DNA from: Turritopsis dohrnii | Taxonomy: Eukaryota; Cnidaria; Hydrozoa; Anthoathecata; Oceaniidae | Assembly: GCA_027922465.2 (NCBI GenBank) | Contig: BQMF02000267.1 | Coordinates: 186,001-250,000, forward strand | Direction: 5' to 3' | Length of the DNA stretch: 64,000 nucleotides | Part shown: piece after piece, positions 11,268-53,957 of the stretch | Position numbering within the stretch: the first letter of the stretch is position 1 | How the letters are laid out: each line of letters starts with the position of its first letter | Program-made: the position numbers and the translations under genes | Notes under the pieces: model-generated | Databases searched by the model: none | What the model saw: only the letters and a program-made list of their open reading frames with translations | What the model was told of the DNA's origin: nothing

Positions 11268-14200
11268 CTTTGAAGTCAGAAACTTTCGCGGGAAGAAAGT
11301 TTCGCGGATCGGCGAATCCGCGAAATTTTTGCATTTCGCGGGAAAAAACTTTTGCGGATGACCAATTTTTAAGGTGGAAGCCTACAATGGAATTTGGTTT
11401 TTCTCTTTTTATAATACTTTCAATTTCATGAAATCTACTCAAAACATGAAGTTCAAACTTTTTACAATACTAAGAAGAATCATTTAGCTATCAGAATTTA
11501 AAAAAAAATTTCAAAAAAAAAAAAAAATCTGGGGGTTATGTCCATTTTTTAAGAACAATAGAATTTCAATAAAATGTAAATATCTTGACACCTACTGAAC
11601 CAATTTACATGAAATAAAATGGAAATACAAGATAATATTAAAGTCTATGCAATGAGTGTAAAAGTTTTTTGAAAAAAAAAAAAATTCAGGGGGTTAATTT
11701 CACTTTCAAAATTTGCAGAGATTTAAAAAAATATCAAGATTAATAATGGTGAATTTGAGATGAAATTCAAAACACTCATTGCATCCTAAATGATAAGAAG
11801 AACATCCTGTGAAATTTTCATCGAGATTACTCAACCCAATCTCAAGATATTTAAGTTTTCGTGCTTGCAAACCCCCGGTTTTTCAATTTTGAGAAAACCG
11901 CAAGAAAGGGAAGCATATAGACAAAATTTATGTATATCTATAAAAAAATCTATGTATGTCTATAAAATGCCATTGGAATAGTCCCGGATATAAAAGTTTG
12001 AACTCTAACAATGAATTTGACAGTGCTGTCAGCAACAAATTGTATCACCGGCAATGGGTTTAGTGTCAATGGCTTCTGCACTTTTTGTTTTTTTAATGTT
12101 TTTTTCACGGTTTTGATGTTTTTGTTCTTTTTCATGTCCTTTGAAGACTTCTTACTAGCAACTGGGATATTTTCAGGCTCCTTAGTCAATCCAAAAGCTC
12201 CTGCTTGGTATGATTTCTTGCTCTTATCTTTGTCCTCTTTAGCTTTTTGTTTAGCTCTAGCTTTGCGACGAGTAAGGCGTGCTTTTTCACTTATTTTACG
12301 AGCAGCATTTTTTATACGTAAATCATTAACTTTGATTGCAGAATTTATTTGATGATGTCCAATATTGACCCCACAATCACTCTGTAAAGAAACTGCAGAT
12401 AATGCCCCTCTGTTTGCCTCAGCAACAGTTTCTGAGACAGCAAGTTCAAGTTTCCTTTTTCCGCAAAATTTATTTTTTGGACAGCGACTCCAAAGAATTC
12501 CATTAATTGATTCGTTTTGATTCTGTGTTCTACCTTTACAGCGTTCCAGCAGTTTATCATCTGATAATCTCTCAAAAATTGGAGATAATTCCGCAAAAAA
12601 TGCATGTGGTAGTCTCTTATTGTCATCGTAATTGTCTCTATTATTCCAAAATTTACACCAGCCGTCTTTTGGGCAATATTGATGCTGTGTTTCTAACATG
12701 TTGTTGTCATTCTTTACCATGTGGTGGAAAACTGCAAGAATATCCCTTTTCATTTGTTCTACATTGCCAGAACTTCTGCGAATAGCTTCACCGTAATGGT
12801 TTTGCATCCGATCGATATAAACATCCGTTAAACGACCCCGACCTCCAACCGATTTTCCGTCAGCCAACTTGAATCCTGCCTTTTTCCGTTTATATTCACG
12901 TAAGGCTCTTCCAAGGCGTTTTTGAATATGACCAACACATTCCTCTTTAATAACATCATATCCAATACCAAGCTTTGCACATTCCTCTGCTACAGTGCCA
13001 TAACAATCTGAGTCACCATCACCTATAAATGTAGTGTACATCAAACCTCTTTGTTCTATTGATCGCTTAAAAAGCTCCACCGCTCCTTCACCTTCCATTT
13101 TACCGGATGAAGCTTCATGATTTATTTGACATTCTTTTTCATGTTTTTGATACCACAATTTGTACTGCTCTGTATTTACACCAAGTTTATTTTTGTGATG
13201 GAGACATGCCCGGCAAAATAGACTTTTCACAATACAGTCTAGAATGTCACCAGTATCTCCTGAAATGATGAAAAGAACGCCAAGTTTTGAGTTATGACCT
13301 CGCTTCATCCATGTACCATCTACAGTTACTCCCACTTTAGCAACAGTTTTACCATTGATTTATGATATTTTCAGGATTATTTTCTTGTACAAGCTGTCTC
13401 AAGTGATCTGCAGACTCATTTAAAATTTTCTCACGCTTTATCATGGACTTAGTGGTAACGGTTTTTATAATGGCGTCATATGGTTTTTTATTTACAGGTG
13501 GTGGAAGGTCTAGATAACCAGCCATCCTTTTAAGTCCAGCTAATCCCATTCCTTGGCAACTGGCATGGACAGATTGGACATTGATCTCAAATGGTTTACG
13601 AAATTTTCTACGACTTGAATTAAAATCAGTTTTAGCACAACATTTCGTACAATGCAGCTGAAATTTTTGAGCAAATCCATGTCGCTTTGAAACAAGTTCT
13701 TTCAACACCAATTTACTATTAGGATTTTGGCAAATAGAACAAATACTAGCACTTGAAATGGCTGTAGAAAGTAAGGATAAATCCATTATGGAATTGCCTT
13801 TTGCCAGTGCGGCCGATTGTGATGATGAAGCTGATGCAGACGGGCAACTCACCATCTTTCTGGTATTGCTAGGTGTTATAAAGGAGACATGAGAGTGTCT
13901 TTTTAGTTTTTGTTGACTCATATTTAAAAGTGGTTTGAAAACACATGTTTTTTCAGATGTTGCTAGGTTTTCAGAAGATGAGTGGGCAGCAGAAGGACCA
14001 GGGATGTCTTCTGAAGTATCTGCGGCGGCCATATTGGATTTTTGCTTGCACTTGTTCGCTGCACATGTTTTCCTTTTTCTGGCTTTTAATTTGGCTTTAG
14101 TTCTAAATTTCATGTTTTATTCTATTTATTTAGTTCTCTTAAAAGCAAAATAAAAAGAATGAACCCAAGAAACGGTTTAAAAATTGACAAAATACACTTC

Positions 14201-20770: not shown

Positions 20771-21595
20771 TTAAAGTGATTTTTGTATTTTACTGACCAG
20801 CTTACGATGAACTAGATTGGAACACCATAGATGGATTTTGGAAGCCGTTGTATTGCCTACTCTTCGTGAGTTTTTTTTTCTAAACATGTATTTAATACCC
20901 CTTGGCGAGCCATCATACAAAAATACATTAATGCATTTTTTTACATGTATATTATATATTAAATAATAATGGCATCTGCCAAACAAAGGGCTAAAAAGTA
21001 GCATCTCGGATGATGCCTTAAAGCTCTTTTTCACATTCTTACGATTGACCCCATAGATAGCACAACAGAAATCTGCCTTATCAACTCCTCCCATGTTTTT
21101 ATTGTAATCATTGATAGCTTTAGGGCAGCTAAATAATTTCTTTGATCCATCTTTCTGGGTTCTACGGATTTGTTCATTTTCTGAACCATGGAAGTTGGAA
21201 ATAAGATTGACAGCCTTATTGTCCATCCATTTGTAAACAGCAATGCCATGATTAGATATACGATAGTCAGAATCACCACGATTCAACTGTTTGTTGTCTT
21301 TCAATTTAGGCAAGTACTTCCGATTAGTGCGAATAGTTCCACAACAAAAGACATTGTTCAAAGATAAGTATTCTGCCAGTGGGACAGATGAAAAATAATT
21401 GTCAAAGTAAACTTTATGATTTTTTCCAAACAAATCCCTTGTCATATACAGGACAAGAACAACTGAATATACGATCTGGACTAGCTCCAGTTGCTTTTTA
21501 GTAGATGTAAACCACATTCTTCTAACTTGACATTTTTTATGTGATGTTTTTGAAAGTTCTAACAGTTTATTTGCCGCATGAGGTTCCTCTTTCAT
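20771..21595 (-). pseudogene. piggyBac-type transposase, C-terminal part, degenerate
   Basis: A 274-codon frame shows the piggyBac (DDE_Tnp_1_7) order of motifs: HKVYFDNYFSSVPLAEYL (second catalytic Asp block), CGTIRTNRKYLP, LNRGDSDYRIS, VYKWMDNKAVNLISNFH, CPKAINDYNKNMGGVDKADF (two further conserved Asp). Past RKNVKKSF the sequence no longer matches the expected RKSKKWW...N..I.Y pattern, so a frameshift is likely there. The first catalytic Asp block should lie upstream, but the sequence there (from about 21,600) belongs to a YqaJ gene. The transposase is therefore 5'-truncated and fused by rearrangement. The N-terminal 60 codons also look frameshifted. Confidence 0.8.
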
Positions 21596-21599
21596 ACTT

Positions 21600-24732: not shown

Positions 24733-26027
24733 TACAACAACTTAGCTTCCCTCGTTTCCTTGGCCTCCAATCCAGAGATCATGAATACTTTAAAAATGAT
24801 ACAATCACAAAATTCAAAAAGAATAGAAGTATTATATTTTCGGTTTACATTTTAAAGTTATCTTAAGATGTAAAGGAGTTTTCTGTATTTTACATTTAGT
24901 TAGCGACAACAAATATGCTTACTTTAATAGATTACAGATTCAGAGCAGCATGTTAGTGAACAGACTTCGCTACAACAACCCTGGTTGCTGGGACTACATC
25001 AGTTTCAACATCTGATCCAGCAACAGAGTAGGTATAGATAAAAATGCTATATGTTTTATATTTTTAATGTTATATGTGTTGTGAGAAATGTCTCAGCAGA
25101 AATGTTTGGCGCCGTAGTATAGTGGTTATCACTCTCGTATTTCATGCGGGAGATCGGGGTTCAATTCTCCTTGGCGACGATTCACCATGCGCGAGTGGAT
25201 GTACCATTGCGCCGGGTCGACCCATACCATGTGAGGGAAATTGGGTAGATGATACATCGGGTGTTGCAGGAGGTCAACCAGAAGAGCACAGGCCCTTGAT
25301 AGGGTTTGTGTCACTCATGAGAGTGTCAAATACTTCGGAGCCTCCAACCTAAGCTGTGGCCCCTCCTGGAAAGCAGATGCAGTAGCAACTGAGTGAGGCT
25401 GGCCACGTAAAACAATACCAAAGAAGAAGAAAGAATTAAGTCTTCTGTTTGGTTTTGAAGGTATCCTGTACTTTATTTATAATTGTTCCGATAATTTAAA
25501 AAAATTATTAGCATTAGAGTTAGCATTATTTTGAATTTTCTTATCATAGTTTAGTTGAAAGTTTAAAGAAACAGCTGAAATATCTAAAAGATAATTTGAA
25601 AAGGTGCCTAGATAAAAGAAATCGTATGAGTAAATCAAGTACTGCTGCTCATACATTACCAACCTGTGATTATTTTGAGGCAATGCATTTTCTACACGAT
25701 AAAACGTCAATTCTAGCAACAGAATCAAACATAGCTCCTGTTGCTGTTGAAATTGAAGATGTGGAAGAACAGTCTCCAAAAATTACTCGAACGCCTTCCT
25801 TAGGAAAACGTAAACACCCTACTGATAATGTGAGTGAAAAGTTGATGACTGAGTTAGAAAGAATAAATAATGATATCAGAAAGACTGATGAAATTGTTGA
25901 TTCAGAGGCTGTTCTTTATGCTCGAAGTCCGGTACCACAATTCGAATAGTTGCCGCCGAAAATATTAAGGATGTTGAAGAGGGAATTGTCTGATATTCTA
26001 TATAAACTACAATATGATGAAGATTGA
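24733..26027 (+). pseudogene. Three-exon gene with BESS/Myb-like tail (Harbinger-accessory type)
   Basis: Exon 1 begins at ATG 24,733 (ANYNNLASLVSLASNPEIMN). Exon 2 (about 24,938-25,031) encodes SEQHVSEQTSLQQPWLLGLH and ends at AG/GTATAG with two bases left over. Exon 3 (25,550-26,027) starts after TATCATAG with the one base needed to complete a serine codon, then LVESLKKQLKYLKDNLKRC. The end reads DEIVDSEAVLYARSPVPQFE, a TAG, then LPPKILRMLKRELSDILYKL and a TGA. That tail has the D..(F)..SV..QL..L.P.......I..IL...Q pattern of BESS-like C-termini found in MADF/Myb-type proteins of Harbinger transposons. The exon 1-2 junction is unresolved and no MADF/Myb domain is visible between them. With the in-frame TAG it is probably decayed. 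Confidence 0.45.
25108..25437 (+). mobile_element. tRNA-derived SINE
   Basis: The 5' end (25,108-25,179) folds like a tRNA. The acceptor GGCGCCG pairs imperfectly with TGGCGAC, the A box is TAGTATAGTGGTTATCAC, the anticodon arm CTCGT-ATTTCAT-GCGGG has anticodon TTC, and the T arm has GGGGTTCAATTCTCC (B box). The overall arrangement is closest to tRNA-Asp/Glu types. A non-tRNA body of about 230 bp follows, ending GCCACGTAAAACAATACCAA and an (AAG)n tail. This combination is a SINE, not a functional tRNA gene. It lies in the second intron of the gene at 24,733-26,027. Target duplications not identified. Confidence 0.8.
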
Positions 26028-26081: not shown

Positions 26082-26131
26082 TTAACATTCATTTTTTGGT
26101 CGTATTATTTGATCAGTGTATACGTTAACCT
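26082..26131 (-). pseudogene. C-terminal end of the OB-fold ORF, cut off by the transposon
   Basis: Reading from the 5-bp duplication AGGTT on the minus strand gives VNVYTDQIIRPKNEC and a TAA at 26,082-26,084, in the same frame as the ORF that stops at the other end of the element (ADHE|V). See 30,758-31,246. Confidence 0.7.
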
Positions 26132-26325
26132 TGTTGTGCCGCATTTTGTAATAAAAGCTGGTTTTGTAATACCTGCCGCGTTTTGTAATAAAAACGGCTG
26201 GTTTTGTAATAACTGCCTAGTTTTGTAATAAAAACGGCTGGTTTTGTAATAACACACCCGACGCGTTTTGTAATAAAAAGTTGCCTCGTTTTGTAATAAA
26301 AAAAAGCTGCCGCGTTTTGTAATAA
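26132..26325 (+). repeat. Left terminal inverted repeat of the Ginger-like element
   Basis: It contains nine copies of TTTTGTAATAA with spacers such as GCCGCG, GCTGG and ACACACCCGACGCG. It matches the right repeat in reverse orientation with very few differences (for example GCATTTTG on the left versus GCGTTTTG on the right in the outermost module). Confidence 0.95.
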
Positions 26326-27177
26326 GACTCAAGCTCATTTTGTAATAATAAAGATTTTTTGTAAGAAACATATTTTGGAGCTGTTGTCATTTTAGAAGAT
26401 TTTTGAGCATGCTCAGTACAAAAATTGCGACTTTGAATAGTTTTAGCTTGTAGTATTCGACATCAAGAGTTTATAAAGCTGATCGTGTCGTAGCCAATGA
26501 AAACATTATAATTTCGATTCTCCAGATAGACAAAAACTTAAGTGACACTTTTTACCCGTTTGTCTTTGATGGTGTCTTAGAAGATGTTCTAATGCTTCCA
26601 ACTGACCTTTTCTTGGCTTTTCTACTAGAAGTAGCTGCTAAAACACTAGACTAGCTTGCTAGTCGTTTTCGTTTGCAAAATATTCAGGCTAAATGCCGTG
26701 AAATATTCCCGGCCGTATAGCGGAGAAAACGACTAGGACCAAAGTGACATAAAAACATTTCGTTCAGTCCGGCAGATAATATAGCGAGGACATATAACGA
26801 TAAGGAACGACTGTTTTCATTGAAAAAAATTAATAAAAACGAATTAGTGGAAAATGCTAAAAGTAAAATAGTAAGATCAAATAACAGAAAAAACAACATT
26901 TTAATTCGAACACGTCAAAAGTAACTAAGGGACTAGGAAAGTCTAAAGACTTTAGACTATAGAAATTTCTTGTCGGTCGTTTGGTTCTATTAATATAAAT
27001 GCAACTTCACCTGTCGGCGCAGTCACATCAGCTGGCCCCCTTATTTTCAGTGGTAACATTTTGCGAAACTGGAATGTTAAAGCAAGACAAATAATTCAAC
27101 ACTTCCTTCGAATTAACTGAATGTAAAATTGCAACAAATGGCCTTGAAGGGTATGGTTTTAATGGGCATATATATAG

Positions 27178-27388
27178 ACCTTTCCCGAATTTCTGTTTAA
27201 ACACCGTGTTTCGACCTAGTTAGTACATCCAACCTCGTTTTAATGCATTTCATTGTTTTATCAATTGTTTGACTTAATTACATAGTAATTATCCTATTTT
27301 ATAAAAACTCCCTATAGAATGATTAACAACAATTTTCATTTTAAAAACGAGGTTGGATGTACTATATAGGTTAAAACACGGGAAAGGT
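27178..27388. mobile_element. Small MITE, ACCTTTCCCG family, inside the Ginger-like element
   Basis: The 211-bp foldback starts ACCTTTCCCGAATTTC and ends with the reverse complement of ACCTTTCCCGTGTTTTAACC. The inner arms share AGTACATCCAACCTCGTTTT. It has no coding capacity. A second member is at 40,934-41,164. It lies downstream of the transposase gene and does not interrupt it. Confidence 0.8.
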
Positions 27389-27509
27389 GAATTGTCATAA
27401 CATATTAATTATATCTGTTAATCTTCAAAAATATTTAAAATGTTGATGTAACCAAAAACTAAAACACCTCAAAAAAAATACCAACGAAATACTAACAAAT
27501 ATTGCAAAG

Positions 27510-30125
27510 TTATTTTTTTTTCCAAAATATGTTCTTGATAATAAACCAACCATGTGCTTCCGCAAGGAGTACAATCCAAGCAAAACACCATCGGGCACTA
27601 TCGATTATCTTTTTAACTTCACGAATTAGGCCACTATGGATACCGAACTTTTGTCGCAACCGTTTAACACTGACACAAAACTCACCAGGGGTATGCTCTG
27701 GAAGCAAACTTTCGTCATTTATATACATCCTCGGTAGTAGTCCTACAGCCTTGTTCGTTATTTTGCCCAATCTCGGAATTGCGGAGATTGCATTATGAAA
27801 ATTCCAGCAAACATGATTTGGAAATGTATATTCCGATTCTGATAGTAAAATCAAAAAGATTTTCTCCAGGATCTCTAACGGCAGTAACTCAAGATAATTG
27901 TTCGGTAAGCTATGTTCATCCTTTCTTGCATCTGACCGTAAATTTTCCATTTCGATATCCTCCTCGTTTATATCACTTTCTTCTATCTGAACATTTCCAT
28001 TTAAAACCACATAGTGAAACCCTTGTCCTTCAGCAAAATGTCCGAGAGTTGCTCGGAAAAATGGTTCAGAGTTTTGTGAAGTGACTCTAGCAAATGCCTG
28101 TTCTCCAAGGGTAGAAACGATGTCGATTTCTATGTTGAGTAAGTCAGAAACAGCACGCAGGGTTATCTCGTCACCATATGTCCCATCTCTAGACATTATG
28201 TTTAAATACTCCTCCCATGACATATCTACAAGAAATTGCTGAATGGGATAACCATCTGGTAATTGGTCGTGCTCTCTTAGATAGGTAATAACATCACTTC
28301 GAAGTGTTTCAGCTGATCTATAAATGTTAACTTGAGACAACGCAAAAGCTAGGGCAGAAAACTGACAATTACCATCACCGGGTGGATCGAATATAAGGTC
28401 GTATCCTTGGTCAGTTATACTTTGCAGTCGGTCGTTGTGTGTCAAAGGGATAAATAGTGGATGAGGTTTTTTGTTTTTGAGTTTGGCTTTTAAATTTGAG
28501 GTATGTAGAGGTTTAACAGAATCAGCTAAATTTTCTAAACGAACTGATTTGAGCACAACAGATTCTGGTTTATCCAGCTTCACGTCGTAGGTAACACCGT
28601 CTTTATTTCTTTTCAAAATCTTTCCAGGTTTTACAGCGTACCTTGTAGATTTTTTGGATTTCTTATTTTTGTCGTTTTTGCATCGCACAAAGACATTTTC
28701 GCCGTTTTCATAAATTTTGAAGATATGTTTCCTTGCATGGTAATTTTGCATTCGTTTGTCCATGCGGTCAGACGCACTTTTTGCACTTTTTCGCCAGGAC
28801 TTTGCTTGCAAAGAGTTAGTTTGGAAATCTTTTTCTTTAGGCAATAGGGTCTTACGAATACTTATGGTATTGTCATGGTCTATTCCAGCGTTTGCAAGCT
28901 CGTTTGACTTTCGCCCAAAATAAATTTCAAAAGGGCTTTTCCAACCTAACTCCTCTCTCTTTTCATTATTCAAACACTTAGCATAGTTTGACATTTCCTT
29001 TGCCCAATTTACTCCCCGATTTTGCCTTTTTATCATGTCGTAATGAATCTTCCTTCTTAATACCCGGTGGGAGCGTTCTACCTTCCCTTGAGCCTGCGGA
29101 TGGTATGGACGACACCGAACCATTTTGATCTTGTTAGATTCGCAAAATTTTTTGACGTGTTTTTTGAATTCGGCCCCGTTGTCACTTTGAAGGCGTACAG
29201 GATAACCGTGAATAGCATAAATTTCTTTAAGTTTTTTTTTAATCCCAACACTGTGCTTGCTTTGAAGGGGGCATAACCAATGAAATCTTGAGAAAACGTC
29301 CATCAAAGACAAAATATATTTGTAAGTTTTGCCTTCATAGTTTACAGAAGTACTCTGCATGTCCACTAGATCGATTTGGTGTTGATCTTGTACCCTTTTC
29401 ACCCTCACAGGGTGGGGTATGGCCTTATTTGTAAACTTGACACTGAATTTGCGTAAGTTTTTATCCTGTGAGATTGCTCTATTAACTTCCCTTTGGCTTA
29501 AGCCGGCATACGCATCCTTTCCTCTCATGTAAATCTTTTTATACCCTCCTGATTTGTTGTTGTCGAACGTTTTTTTCACAATTTCTTTTAAGGTACCTCT
29601 TCTCACCACCTTAAATATATATCAAAAGATCAAAATATATAGATCAAAACATTCATCAAAATCCCGCTTATACTACAGTGTGTATCGAAAAAATGTCCGG
29701 ACCATAATTGGAAAGTTTAATTATGCAATATTAACACTCAATCCTGATTGGTTATAAAATGTGAAGAAGTTGCTTATTGGTTAAAAAAATAAACCTACCC
29801 CACGTGGGAACTCAAACCAAGCTACCTTTTTCTGGTTCTTTAAAAAACAGTTTTAAAGTTATATACATACCTTCTTTCCATCGTAGTGAAGTATATCGCC
29901 ATTACTGGTAAACTTTCCCTTGGCGCGCCAAAATTTGACAATGGCACTTTTCTGAACTTGATTTCTCTCTTTCACTGGAACTGAAAACGTTCCCTTTGCC
30001 AATTTAAGCAAAATTTCGTATTCTTCATCTCCTACTGTGTGGATGCCATAAATACAACGAATATCAACAAGAAATATGAACAATAATACGAACAAAATAA
30101 TCTTGAAATTTGTAACTTTCAACAT
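27510..30125 (-). CDS. Ginger-like transposase: integrase + OTU protease + F-box
   Basis: Exon 1 (30,125-29,871) ends DGKK at the donor AAG/GTATGT. Exon 2 (29,609-27,510) starts after ATTTAAG in phase 0 and is uninterrupted for 699 codons, giving about 784 residues. Exon 2 domains: integrase core with catalytic D80 (HQIDLVDM), D143 (QSDNGAEF) and E178 (GKVERSHR), spaced as in retroviral-type DDE enzymes; a GPY/F-like segment around 325-347 (AVKPGKIL...YDVKLD); OTU protease with D412-G-N-C415 and H532 (FHYVVLNG); an F-box-like helix (LELLPLEILEKIF, about 573-610); and a C-terminal ARWCFAWIVLLAEAHGWFII segment. Integrase would cut and join element ends. The OTU domain would cleave ubiquitin. 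The F-box could bind SKP1. Exon 1 opens with a very hydrophobic stretch (residues 7-27) that is odd for a nuclear enzyme, so the true start may be elsewhere. All motifs look intact. Confidence 0.85.
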
Positions 30126-30563
30126 AATCGTTGTCTGATTTTTCTTAAAACGCTTTATTCTATTCTATCAATTCTATCAATTCTATCAAAATCCACACTA
30201 CTTACTACAAACTTGAAAATTTTGTGTAAAAGAAAAACGTTCGAAATTCGATTTCATGAATGTCGATTTCTTATTATGAATGTCGATTTCTTATTATGTT
30301 TTCTTTTAAACTGGAATTTTCATAGAACAAAGAAATCCGATATCTTATCTGACGAAAGTATGATTTAGCGTGTTGATTCGAAAACTCAATAAAAACCTTG
30401 TTGTTATCCAAAGTGTTCTGAGCATATCCTTATCTTTCAACCTCGTGTTCGTATAAAATTGTTCTTATGAAAATGAAAGATTTCTGTCTTTTGCCAAGTT
30501 AAAATAAAAAATGATTTATAAAATATTGTAAAAATGCAATTATTACAAAAACTATTCAATATG

Positions 30564-30757
30564 TTATTACAAAACGCGGCAGCTTTTTTTTATTACAAAA
30601 CGAGGCAACTTTTTATTACAAAACGCGTCGGGTGTGTTATTACAAAACCAGCCGTTTTTATTACAAAACTAGGCAGTTATTACAAAACCAGCCGTTTTTA
30701 TTACAAAACGCGGCAGGTATTACAAAACCAGCTTTTATTACAAAACGCGGCACAACA
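30564..30757 (-). repeat. Right terminal inverted repeat of the Ginger-like element
   Basis: Reverse complement of 26,132-26,325. The TTATTACAAAA modules are in the same order and with the same spacers, and the repeat ends GCGGCACAACA before the AACCT duplication. Confidence 0.95.
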
Positions 30758-31246
30758 AACCTCATGGTCGGCAAAGATCAACTTGAAATTTCGAACAGCA
30801 GTAAGTGCAGAGTATCGGAAACTTGTATGACAACTACTCCATTTGTAAAAATTTGTTTGATTAACAGGATTTGCAACTTTACCACACTTACAACGCAGCT
30901 GGATAGCATCGGAATTGCACCCAATGACCGGAAACTGGATACTAGTGTACAGTTGGAAATGCGGTTTCTTTTTTCCCAATTTCACTGCTGCTGGTTTGAA
31001 CACAGTCGATGAAACTGAATTCAATACTAATACTTTGTTTCCATTAATTTCCACTTCACGAATGAGAATAATGATCACATCATAAGCCCCACTTGATTTA
31101 ACTACATCTATGGATTCGCCCCAGAGAATCAACGTCATCAAAGCTGTACTGTCATTGAAATAAACTTCTTTCTTGCTCGATGAAAATAAATGCATTGATG
31201 CAGCGTAACAGTTGTCGACAGATATGTAACCAGTCACAGACACCAT
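30758..31246 (-). pseudogene. OB-fold (RPA-like) single-strand DNA-binding type ORF, interrupted
   Basis: The minus-strand frame starts MVSVTGYISVDNCYAASMHL and continues with ALMTLILWGESIDVV and NGNKVLVLNSVSST. The FNDSTAxxTLxLWG...NGxKxLxLxSxS pattern resembles the OB-fold repeats of RPA70 and its transposon-borne relatives. A C-terminal CKCGKVANPVNQTNFYKWSSC could bind zinc. The frame reaches ADHE and runs into the Ginger-like repeat. Beyond the element it continues for 15 residues to a stop. Upstream (31,450-31,260) there are coding-like pieces in other frames (EDWLTAKGYLRDELADDSSD; FVEESIDELLTNEKG), so the 5' part is already broken or spliced. Confidence 0.6.
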
Positions 31247-39674: not shown

Positions 39675-42168
39675 ATACCGTTGTTTAGTTCGTGAAGACT
39701 CTTGAAAATTTCTGGTCAAAAATCAAGTATTTCTACAAGGTAAAAATTTATTTCTGGATTTTAATCAACAGATGTGCAGTTTAATGAATCTCTCGATACA
39801 GAGTTAACACCCCTTTGCCTGACAATTTTAAATACTTCTCTTATGTTCGTCAGTTAAGGAGTCAATGGTTAATTTTTATGTCCAAAATGTGTTAATGACA
39901 TAAAAGAATTTCAATCTGTCAAAAGGCTATTAAAAATTAGTCGGATAACACAACGGGAACTTTATAAAGCTATTTGACTGGAGAATAATATTAGCTCCAA
40001 ACTTCAATATATATTCTAATATAATTTATCTCATTCTTTTTTCTTTCTTATCAATAGCAATGGCTGCAAGATGGACCATCATCACATTTCAGGCATTGTG
40101 GTATCATCAAATATGTTTTGCCGCGTCCCCAATAACTGTTGCAACACAGAGATGTCAAAGACATGAAGGATCGCCTTTTAGTGCACCCATGGTGCAGGCA
40201 ATGCATCTCTACAAACAGGTTTTGAAACATCATTTTGGAGGAAAGCCAATACAGAGCAGTCACGTGATGCCTTTTGCTTCCGACAGAGGAATTAGGCATT
40301 ACTTATTTGCTCATTTTCCGAAGGCATGGCCGGAATACTCAAAAGAAATCCCTGCATATGTTCGAAAAGCCACGGACCTTATCAACGATTTACACGGGCT
40401 TGATCAGGAATATTTTGGGTTTCGACTTTTGAAAGGGCTCCGAAAGGTGATTTGTTTTTTAAATGATAATGATAATTAACCGTTCCCATTAATCAGTTAT
40501 ATCCTGGATATGCTACCTCTGCCAAAATACAATGGAAAAGTTATTTGCTTCGGGATTGCTTTAAGGACTGCTCTAAACACCTGCGGGAATATATGTTTTG
40601 GTTGTGAAACTTTTTTTATTATTACGTTGAGGCTTGTGGCAAGCTAAACTATGGGAACAGTAAATTACAATTTTCCATTTTTGGTTTCTTTTTAATACGA
40701 TGCTTCTTTTTTCGATATGAAAAATATCAATTTCTACAGATCATTCAAAATAAATTTGTTTAAACACCGTGCTAATGCCTTGTTATGGAGCTCTCATCAC
40801 TTCTATATATTCTATTGATTTAGTTCTTATATATTTCATTGACTTAGCCATAACACGTTGTTTAAAGAAATATTCGCAAAATATCTACTTGATATTGTTA
40901 AAAGCCGCTCCGTAAGAAAAAATAAAATAATAGACCTTTCCCGAATTGCCGTTTAAACACCGTGTTATAGCCTAGCCACTAAGTTTCGCCTCTTTTTCAA
41001 ACTCTTCTTCACTTCTAATTATCCCGCTGGGGAACTGAAAGAACGAGTAACTATTACTTACTGAAAACATTATGAAATTAGAAAAACAATAAAAAACATA
41101 GAAACGAGGCTAAACTTGATAACTATGCTTTAACTCGGCATTTAAACAGAAATTCGGGAAAGGTGTATTGCTTTTGAACAGTATTTTAGGGGGTGTTTAT
41201 ATGGAGGTGAGCTGGCCCGGTTAGCCGGGCTGGCTTACTTAGCCGAGACAATTTCATCTCGCCTTTATATGGAAGCGGGCTGGCTCACCTTTGTATTTTT
41301 TTGTTTATCAAATAGTATACGCGTGCTATGAAATTAGCCCGCTCAGCCGGGCTGGCCCGGTTGTGGATGTTTATATGGAAAATTTTCATCCCACTGAAAC
41401 GAGATCTTGGCAAATTGAACCGAACCGAGGTGGGCTGGCTCGGTTTTCATATAAACACATTCGAATAAAAACATATATTTCTTAATGTAAGTGAGATCTC
41501 GGCTAAGCGAGCCAGCCCGTTTAACCGGGCCAGCTCGGTTCCATAAACACCCCCTTACTTTCTTTATGCTGAAATGATGATACGTAATTTCCAGCGAATT
41601 GATATATTTTTATATTTTTCAACCTTGCTGAAAGCGTTAACCTTCAGGCCTCAAGGGCCTCTGGTCTTTATTTCGAATTCCGCTAAAAAAAAGCAAGTAG
41701 CTACATTCTGTAATTATCAAGCAAATCTTCGACACCTGTGTTATTTCATGAACATGCAAAATTTCGAATACTTACTGCTCTTGACTTACGTAGTGTATCT
41801 ACACACAAAGACCATGGCTTTTAGTTGTGCTTCGAGTTCCAGTAGCATAGAATTCCTTTCAGCAATGATATCTTTGAACAGTTTATGATTTTCAATTTTG
41901 GATGCATTAAACTGTTCACAGCATATAGAGAAAGCAATTCATTACTAAACCTATTTTGCTGTCTCCTTATCTGTCTTATTTTCACTTGTTTTTAGAGATT
42001 TGTGGAATTTTCAACCTTCACCAAGTTACCAAGATTTTCTTATTTCCAAATCTCGTTTAGACATATCGAACCATACGATAATCTCTGAGCCTCCACAGTG
42101 AGCCTTCCTATGCTTGGGTTTTATATTATAGAATTTTTCTTTTATATATATATATATAGTTATCACAT

Positions 42169-52743: not shown

Positions 52744-52811
52744 CGGAATGTAACTACGTTTTCTTGCATTTAGAATAAAAGCGTGTGTTGTTTAATGCGG
52801 CCTAAAACTTT

Positions 52812-53957
52812 ATGATGGATTGGTTACTGATGATAATTTTCGGTTTAATTGTAAACCATGTAAACACGTATTCTTCAAGTTACCATAATGGTGGTTATTA
52901 CGGTGGTACCTATAACGCAGACGAAATTCATTCGAATGTGAGAGAAATCAGCAAACTGAAAGAAAGAATAAGTTTTGTTCAAAACAGAACACAAGAAAAA
53001 ATATCAAACTTTACGACAAATATAACTGAAAGCTACGAAAACATCTCATCGTACATACACGCGCTTCATGCAGGACTAAACAGAGAATTGACCACGATGA
53101 AAAAAGCTATAGTACCTCAGCTACCTTCAAAACTACAGGAACTGGAAACAAGGCTTCACAAGCTTGAAACGAGAATAAAAATCGACTTTTCCTACTGCCA
53201 GTCTCTACCAGCGTCAACTTGTGGACCGTGTTTGTGCTTTGATGACTACAAGCTATCCAAGAAATACTACTGCGACTGTCAAAACCTGCAAGTTAAGCGT
53301 GATTGTTTGGAATTTTACAACTCTGGGGTTAAAGTGAACGGAGTGTACAAAGTCCACAACAACAACTTGAAAATGATGCGAGTCTACTGCGACCAATCAA
53401 CTGATGGAGGTGGTTGGACAGTTTTCCAAAGAAGGTATGATGGATCAACAGACTTTAATCGCAATTGGGATATGTATGAAAGTGGTTTTGGTACGCTACA
53501 GCACGAGCATTGGTTGGGTCTGGCTGATATTCACATTCTAACCATGCAATCGATGGTTCCAAAGGGAACTGAGTTGCGAATTGAGATGAAAAACGTGGAT
53601 AGTAGCCAGACTTACTTCGCAAAATACCGTCACTTTCAAGTGAATAACAGTTTCCTGCAGTACATGATACATGTATATGGTTACTCAGGAGATGCAGGGG
53701 ATGGTATGTCGCCACAGAATGGAAGATACTTCTCCACCTACGACCGTGATAATGACGGAGATAACAATAAACACTGTTCTCAGATTCATAAGGGCGGATG
53801 GTGGTACAGCTCGTGCGGAGAATCTAATTTGAATGGCTTGATGGACAAATCGTTCAACGTCAACGAAACAAAAAGTAGCGCCTTCTGGATCTTTTGGGAG
53901 GGTATGAAAGGAAAAACTATTCATTTTGTGGAGATGAAAGCACGAAGAGCGGTTTGA
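52812..53957 (+). CDS. Secreted fibrinogen-domain (FReD) protein, ficolin/angiopoietin-like
   Basis: Intronless frame of 381 residues. Residues 1-19 form a signal peptide (WLLMIIFGLIVNHVN). A short glycine/tyrosine-rich stretch follows (22-34), then a heptad-like coiled-coil region (about 38-125) with several N-glycosylation sites (N58, N66, N70, N77), and a Cys-rich hinge (128-156). The fibrinogen C-terminal domain runs from about 162 to 380: RDCLEFYNSGVKVNGVY, the CDQSTDGGGWTVFQRRYDGS signature, a calcium-binding loop DRDNDGDNNKHC (311-322) and GGWWYSSCGESNLNG. Cys165/193 and Cys322/335 would form the two standard disulfides. Such proteins oligomerise through the coiled coil and often bind acetylated sugars as innate immune lectins. 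Whether this one does is inference. A TATA box lies upstream, and AATAAA at 54,281. The lack of introns could reflect retroposition or an ancestral single-exon gene. Confidence 0.93.
   Translation: MMDWLLMIIFGLIVNHVNTYSSSYHNGGYYGGTYNADEIHSNVREISKLKERISFVQNRTQEKISNFTTNITESYENISSYIHALHAGLNRELTTMKKAIVPQLPSKLQELETRLHKLETRIKIDFSYCQSLPASTCGPCLCFDDYKLSKKYYCDCQNLQVKRDCLEFYNSGVKVNGVYKVHNNNLKMMRVYCDQSTDGGGWTVFQRRYDGSTDFNRNWDMYESGFGTLQHEHWLGLADIHILTMQSMVPKGTELRIEMKNVDSSQTYFAKYRHFQVNNSFLQYMIHVYGYSGDAGDGMSPQNGRYFSTYDRDNDGDNNKHCSQIHKGGWWYSSCGESNLNGLMDKSFNVNETKSSAFWIFWEGMKGKTIHFVEMKARRAV

Follow-up and report, generated by a model that had tools for sequence, protein, structure and literature searches.

A recently mobile integrase-type DNA transposon in Turritopsis dohrnii whose transposase carries an OTU protease, an F-box-like segment and a signal-peptide-like start

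Among DNA transposons that use a retroviral-type integrase, the Ginger1 elements (Bao, Kapitonov and Jurka, 2010; PMC2836005) are described as encoding a DDE integrase-type transposase with, in some families, a C-terminal OTU domain, Ulp1 being an alternative C-terminal domain. In that description they are approximately 2.6–7 kb long, contain introns in some cases and have terminal inverted repeats (TIRs) of 40–270 bp that start with TGTNR; they are defined by a 4-bp CCGG/CCGT target-site duplication, an HHCC zinc finger and a GPY/F motif. The description of Ginger also raised the issue of why ubiquitin or SUMO proteases should be present in some transposases (PMC2836005). The Ginger2/Tdd group (TDD-4, TDD-5) also has an integrase-type transposase, and its elements end in TG..CA and generate 4- or 5-bp duplications (PMC2836005 and PMC10045372). 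Ginger2 has an H2C2 finger, and a target preference for RTATAY is reported for Ginger2 elements. Here we analyse a 64,000-nucleotide stretch of the hydrozoan Turritopsis dohrnii (GenBank assembly GCA_027922465.2, contig BQMF02000267.1, positions 186,001 to 250,000 of the forward strand; hereafter the window), in which positions 26132–30757 form a complete 4,626-bp DNA element, the same extent as given by a first-pass annotation made from the sequence.

We consider it fairly probable (roughly 0.6) that this is an apparently autonomous, recently mobile transposon of an integrase lineage distinct from Ginger1, whose transposase combines a secretory signal at its N terminus with a module for handling ubiquitin at its C terminus. 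Compared with Ginger1 as published, the element is without the HHCC finger, has varied 5-bp duplications, and carries an F-box-like module with a tail and a signal-peptide-like start; the term F-box is not present in the main text of PMC2836005. OTU domains of the same family, with the D, C and H residues in place, occur in Ginger and Helitron proteins and in OTUD5 and OTUD3, whereas in this clade the OTU domain is fused behind the integrase. F-box sequences joined to a domain derived from a transposable element have been described (PMC12062965), but the fusions reported there are host genes with a Tc1/mariner helix-turn-helix (the second case being from zebrafish) and not mobile elements, and the main text of that paper contains no word beginning with OTU.

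The ends of the element are defined by the following features.

26127–26131, unstranded: left target-site duplication AACCT, identical to 30758–30762
26132–26325, plus strand: left TIR, starting TGTTGTGCC, 193 of 194 positions complementary to the right end
26144–26347, plus strand: array of 10 copies of TTTGTAATA, putative transposase binding sites
30540–30745, minus strand: right-end counterpart of this array, comprising a further 10 copies of TTTGTAATA
30564–30757, minus strand: right TIR, ending GGCACAACA
30758–30762, unstranded: right target-site duplication AACCT, matching the left one

The termini therefore read TGTTG...CAACA, with inverted repeats of 194 bp that contain a single mismatch. 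All 20 copies of TTTGTAATA lie in the two outer 230-bp ends and there are none in the remainder of the element; the arrays are likely to be binding sites for the transposase. A sister family in the same genome (family D, locus L043) carries this word 10 times at one end and 9 times at the other, with terminal repeats of about 222 bp, 99% identity between the ends and the duplication GTTTC.

A search of the window's own assembly (436 Mb, 891 contigs) identified at least three additional full-length copies together with a truncated one, a lower bound because only scored candidates were counted. The full-length copies are 99.78, 99.63 and 99.37% identical to the window copy, and the truncated copy is 99.79% identical over 3,284 bp. 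The 5-bp duplications flanking the three other full-length copies are CCAGT, AATGT and ACTAT, so that all four full-length copies have duplications of this length. The 703-codon frame of the transposase is open in each of the five copies found, and those of the other copies differ from that of the window by 2 to 6 bases. Since the copies are nearly identical and all five frames are open, the element has moved recently; past mobility is almost certain, and chance is ruled out for the element ends, the open frame and the integrase and OTU matches. The first-pass annotation had described the ends and coding region as intact and had proposed a search for further copies with such ends in the same assembly, and on both counts these results bear it out. 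The window copy is itself the odd one out, with I300 and L495 in place of the T and F present in each of the other four copies.

The transposase gene lies on the minus strand and is modelled as 784 amino acids encoded by two exons (85 and 699 residues). Residues are numbered below on P0001, the stop-to-stop frame of 703 codons at 29621–27510 (minus strand), unless otherwise stated.

30045–30125, minus strand: signal-peptide-like segment MLKVTNFKIILFVLLFIFLVDIRCIYG, 12-residue hydropathy 3.79
29871–30125, minus strand: coding part of exon 1, 85 codons, with the signal-peptide-like start and a conserved N-terminal domain
29610–29870, minus strand: predicted intron of 261 bp, GT...AG, with the in-frame junction DGKK/VVRRG
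27510–29609, minus strand: exon 2 including the stop codon, 699 codons, with integrase, OTU, F-box-like segment and tail
28887–29396, minus strand: DDE integrase core, residues 76–245, with D84, D147 and E182 (Pfam rve, 4e-11)
27987–28436, minus strand: OTU cysteine protease, residues 396–545, with D416, C419 and H536 (Pfam OTU, 1.3e-9)
27735–27905, minus strand: F-box-like helical segment, residues 573–629, LPLEILEKIF...VCWNF, which recurs in relatives
27513–27734, minus strand: conserved C-terminal alpha/beta tail, residues 630–703, SG..E.K.II...W..AW...W..I..I.WK

Counted from the splice acceptor the long frame has 699 codons, as in the uninterrupted exon that had been annotated, and the homologues P0010, P0011 and P0014 continue without a gap across the exon junction (judged by eye). 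In sister family D (L043:2674–5097) a single unbroken frame of 808 residues encodes the whole transposase, including its signal-like start.

The catalytic residues assigned at first pass to a DDE integrase (D80, D143, E178) and an OTU protease (D412, C415, H532) are residues 84, 147, 182, 416, 419 and 536 of P0001, and both assignments stand, supported by the Pfam matches and by the conservation of these columns. In a 31-row alignment, counting rows that have a letter at the position, the integrase residues are kept in 20/20 (D), 26/26 (D) and 28/28 (E) sequences, and those of the OTU domain, which include the Cys, the His and the Asp of the DGNC motif, in 28/30 (D), 30/30 (C) and 26/27 (H); the exceptions are two homologues with N for D416 and one with Y for H536. 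By sequence, the core matches the solved integrase of prototype foamy virus (PFV; 2e-15), and the closest solved relative for the OTU part of the family profile is OTUD5 (3.8e-8), with OTUD3 at 2e-6. The fold predicted for P0014, a complete homologue, matches the integrases of PFV (3e-13) and Ty3 (8e-12), in a model with a mean predicted local distance difference test (pLDDT) score of 74.3 and a predicted template modelling score of 0.34.

Downstream of the OTU domain, the first-pass annotation had proposed an F-box-like segment at about residues 573–610, added to this particular element. The second part of this proposal was not sustained, since the C-terminal module is spread over a clade of related transposases. 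Of 100 collected proteins, 35 matched a profile of the module at E < 1e-3 (the profile had been built from 18 of these, and P0075 and P0077 are doubtful), with no match in P0033–P0036, in which the OTU domain lies ahead of the integrase. A quick tree was built from 83 integrase cores (67 rows labelled as family, 13 Gypsy-type and 3 other OTU-integrase proteins) and has several long branches; in it, 66 of the 67 family-labelled rows form a clade with 96% support in the Shimodaira–Hasegawa-like approximate likelihood ratio test (SH-aLRT), P0085 falling outside, and the module is present in the deep branches of this clade. Between families A and B the identity is 80% for the core, 67% for the OTU domain, 65% for the F-box-like part and 61% for the tail, compared with 30% for the preceding linker; the corresponding values between families A and C are 78, 59, 58, 58 and 15%. 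Since these identities are far above those of the linker, the module appears to be under constraint. The S, W, W and W columns of the tail are invariant in 17 sequences.

The first part of the proposal fared better at the level of the family than in the window protein. Among 32 trimmed family segments, 18 matched Pfam F-box-like (best 5.2e-5) and 16 matched Pfam F-box (best 0.0017) at E ≤ 1, compared with none of the 32 shuffled segments for either family; of 17 longer C-termini, six matched F-box-like and six F-box. For the window protein itself, the Pfam search that had been suggested recovered rve and OTU but no F-box match, either with the whole protein or with its last 132 residues, and a 62-residue segment gave only a sub-threshold F-box match (E 0.07; 13.3 bits, with the cut-off at 24.3). 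Alignment with hhalign to a profile of six solved F-boxes gave 83% over 18 columns, covering helix 1 only, a score reached by none of 200 column shuffles. A structure check had also been proposed, and AlphaFold predicted the C-terminus (17 sequences) with an overall pLDDT of 90.9 as a helical bundle (model helices 11–23, 33–43 and 45–57) followed by a small alpha/beta tail; the bundle is thus confidently predicted, but no F-box structure was present among the 50 of 71 Foldseek matches listed or the 21 VIA-align entries, for what is a very small domain. We retain the label 'F-box-like' because the window match is weak, the profile alignment covers helix 1 alone and the structure matches listed include no F-box. 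Segment 573–629 may be regarded as a conserved, F-box-like feature of the family with putative SKP1 binding. A serious, though less favoured, alternative is that bundle and tail have a structural role within the transposase, for instance in dimerisation or in binding target DNA, and are not an adaptor for the SKP1–cullin–F-box (SCF) ligase. Against this, F-box-like and F-box are the sole listed Pfam families that match more than one segment, and the adjoining OTU domain also works on ubiquitin.

Exon 1 opens with MLKVTNFKIILFVLLFIFLVDIRCIYG, 13 codons past an in-frame stop, and has a single methionine between that stop and the splice donor. This signal-peptide-like start had been overlooked at first pass. 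The corresponding starts of other families in the same genome are MKIFMYISFLLLVKILLVF, MELNITVKPLFFMLFVFLIADIRC, MISFLVTLKILSICF, MLLKIFFFSILIDHSCG and MKGVRMLKKTVLVVFLVVQILIVING. It can be seen that between families the letters of the start differ while its hydrophobicity persists, as in signal peptides. When 104 sequences were scanned for hydropathy, 37 contained the N-terminal domain and 29 of these had at least 18 residues upstream of it and were testable. A 12-residue stretch with a mean hydropathy of at least 2.0 was present in 27 of the 29, including the window protein and five of the six families in its genome, compared with 18 of 4,800 control segments (0.4%) taken from the rest of 24 of these proteins; family E, which begins MLLKIFFFSILIDHSCG, was excluded as it has 17 residues upstream against the limit of 18. 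In the P0014 model the hydrophobic segment is one long helix (19–48), followed by a low-confidence stretch (48–56) and then the folded N-terminal domain. No report of such a signal-peptide-like start was among the results listed by the searches made. Because the clade keeps this signal-peptide-like start, we infer that targeting to the endoplasmic reticulum (ER) is probable.

It is also possible, though we hold it to be less probable, that the hydrophobic start is not used as a signal peptide and serves as a nuclear-envelope anchor or as a hydrophobic helix of different function, or that an alternative promoter bypasses it. One would not expect a nuclear enzyme to take the secretory route, and the hydrophobic parts are longer or interrupted in family D and in P0066. 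However, hydrophobicity near the first methionine is conserved though the sequence is not, the first exon bears the conserved N-terminal domain, and family A has no second methionine.

Several observations weigh against the favoured reading, in which a secretory signal is combined with a ubiquitin-handling module. With regard to the start, P0062 (0.84) and P0011 (1.91) fall below 2.0, P0019 has nine residues upstream and no clear signal, and the start has been lost in some degraded genome copies (the C384 copy of family B and one copy of family E). Independent cases are fewer than 29, because several of the proteins are near-copies (P0041/P0043/P0044/P0061, P0037/P0038, P0040/P0059 and P0062/P0064/P0083). 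Hydropathy is the sole basis of the signal-peptide-like call, and the proteins compared are predicted reading frames. For the C-terminal module, the F-box evidence is strong for helix 1 only. The comparison of family A with the more distant family D (core 65%, OTU 47%, F-box-like 36%, tail 41%, linker 32%) supports constraint less well, the contrast between F-box-like part and linker being weak, and synonymous changes between families are saturated, so that they yield no ratio of nonsynonymous to synonymous rates. Finally, OTU, F-box and integrase roles belong to the cytosol or nucleus, at odds with entry into the ER, and escape from ER-associated degradation, considered below, is conjecture. 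This clash of an ER signal with nuclear work is both the weakest and the most interesting point of the favoured reading.

The first-pass annotation had called the element Ginger-type, which is apt in that it is a DNA transposon combining an integrase and an OTU domain, but not with regard to the zinc finger or the duplications. There is no Cys in residues 1–84 and hence no HHCC/CxxC finger there, and no CxxC was present within the 150 residues before the first catalytic D in seven homologues, while the control P0035 has one. None of the duplications at the four full-length copies (AACCT, CCAGT, AATGT, ACTAT) is the 4-bp CCGG/CCGT of Ginger1. A GPY/F motif was not seen after the core when alignment A1 was inspected by eye, no model search for the motif having been made. 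Since it has varied 5-bp duplications and no HHCC finger, the element lies outside the Ginger1 definition. It resembles Ginger2/Tdd in its TG..CA ends and a duplication within 4–5 bp but, unlike Ginger2 as described, has no H2C2 finger, and RTATAY is matched exactly at none of its insertion sites, which at four are few. We read it as belonging to a separate lineage of integrase-type DNA transposons, set apart from Ginger1 by description, the tree being one without named Ginger sequences.

The view of it as a Ginger1 element with an acquired F-box, whose single protein would integrate DNA, deubiquitinate and recruit SCF against a host silencing factor, is on this evidence quite improbable. The TIR length of 194 bp, the TGTTG start, which fits TGTNR, the intron and the C-terminal OTU domain (1.3e-9) behind an integrase all agree with the published account of Ginger1 (PMC2836005), and there are Pfam F-box-like matches. 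The missing finger and the 5-bp duplications without CCGG argue against it, as do the presence of the module in the deep branches of the whole clade and a profile match confined to helix 1. That the sequence is a domesticated host gene whose inverted repeats arose by chance, as its conserved multi-domain protein and intron might suggest, is refuted by the copies, four in number with separate 5-bp duplications and near-identical ends.

Under the favoured reading, the DDE core would be expected to bind the TTTGTAATA arrays at both ends, to cut at the CA-3' termini and to join across a 5-bp stagger, by analogy with the catalysis of integrases. The C-terminal half would be a ubiquitin-handling module consisting of the OTU deubiquitinase followed by the F-box-like bundle and small tail; the OTU domain would most likely shield the transposase or its complex from degradation, and the F-box-like part may bind SKP1 and recruit the SCF ligase. 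Integration, deubiquitination and SCF recruitment could in this way be coupled, as hypothesised at first pass. The nascent transposase would probably be sent first to the ER membrane by its signal-peptide-like start and would then have to return through the cytosol to the nucleus, for which its own OTU domain would suit escape from ER-associated degradation. As described in PMC5371415, the signal peptide of mouse mammary tumour virus (MMTV) Rem follows such a course, as part of an integrating element's protein that enters the ER, is extracted by p97 and works in the nucleus, but Rem is a retroviral Rev-like protein and not a transposase, and the parallel is an analogy only.

An extended version, which we regard as unlikely, is that the transposase of this clade is a secretory precursor: a conserved signal peptide would take it into the ER, and it would then go back to the nucleus or even leave for other cells, its ubiquitin fate being steered by the OTU and F-box-like parts. 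If true, passage of a transposase through the secretory route would be a new means by which the activity of a mobile element could be controlled, delayed or spread. The combination of an OTU domain, an F-box-like module and a signal-peptide-like start in a recently mobile element that has several sister families in the same genome makes it possible to test whether a transposase reaches the nucleus by way of the cell's machinery for protein quality control and ER export, and marks an integrase-type lineage outside the Ginger1 definition.

The 3' non-coding part of the element contains a further insertion.

27173–27381, unstranded: nested insertion of about 208 bp resembling a miniature inverted-repeat transposable element (MITE), with inverted arms 27204–27241 and 27344–27381

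The full-length copies align across this insertion, which therefore predates the spread of the element, and the assembly contains the MITE-like palindrome at a minimum of 20 further positions, with 13 at 96–97% and 7 at 86–90% identity. Elsewhere in the window, an inverted repeat at 40924–41174 with 73-nt arms includes a part that matches the nested MITE at 92.7% identity over 41 bases, and is probably its relative.

Adjoining the left side of the element, a frame at 25524–25949 has matches below the Pfam cut-off to TcpS (0.00046) and MADF (0.0039) and is perhaps a piece of another transposon's accessory gene. Two overlapping frames at 11950–14116 (minus strand) encode a Mutator-like transposase (PF20700, 1.5e-46 and 1.6e-12), and a transposase fragment with DDE_Tnp_1_7 (4.9e-31) lies at 20771–21598 (minus strand), which we take to be of piggyBac type. 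An open frame at 52806–53957 has a hydrophobic start and a fibrinogen C-terminal domain (5e-56), and its product is probably a secreted host protein. ARAGORN predicts a tRNA-Glu (ttc) at 25107–25180.

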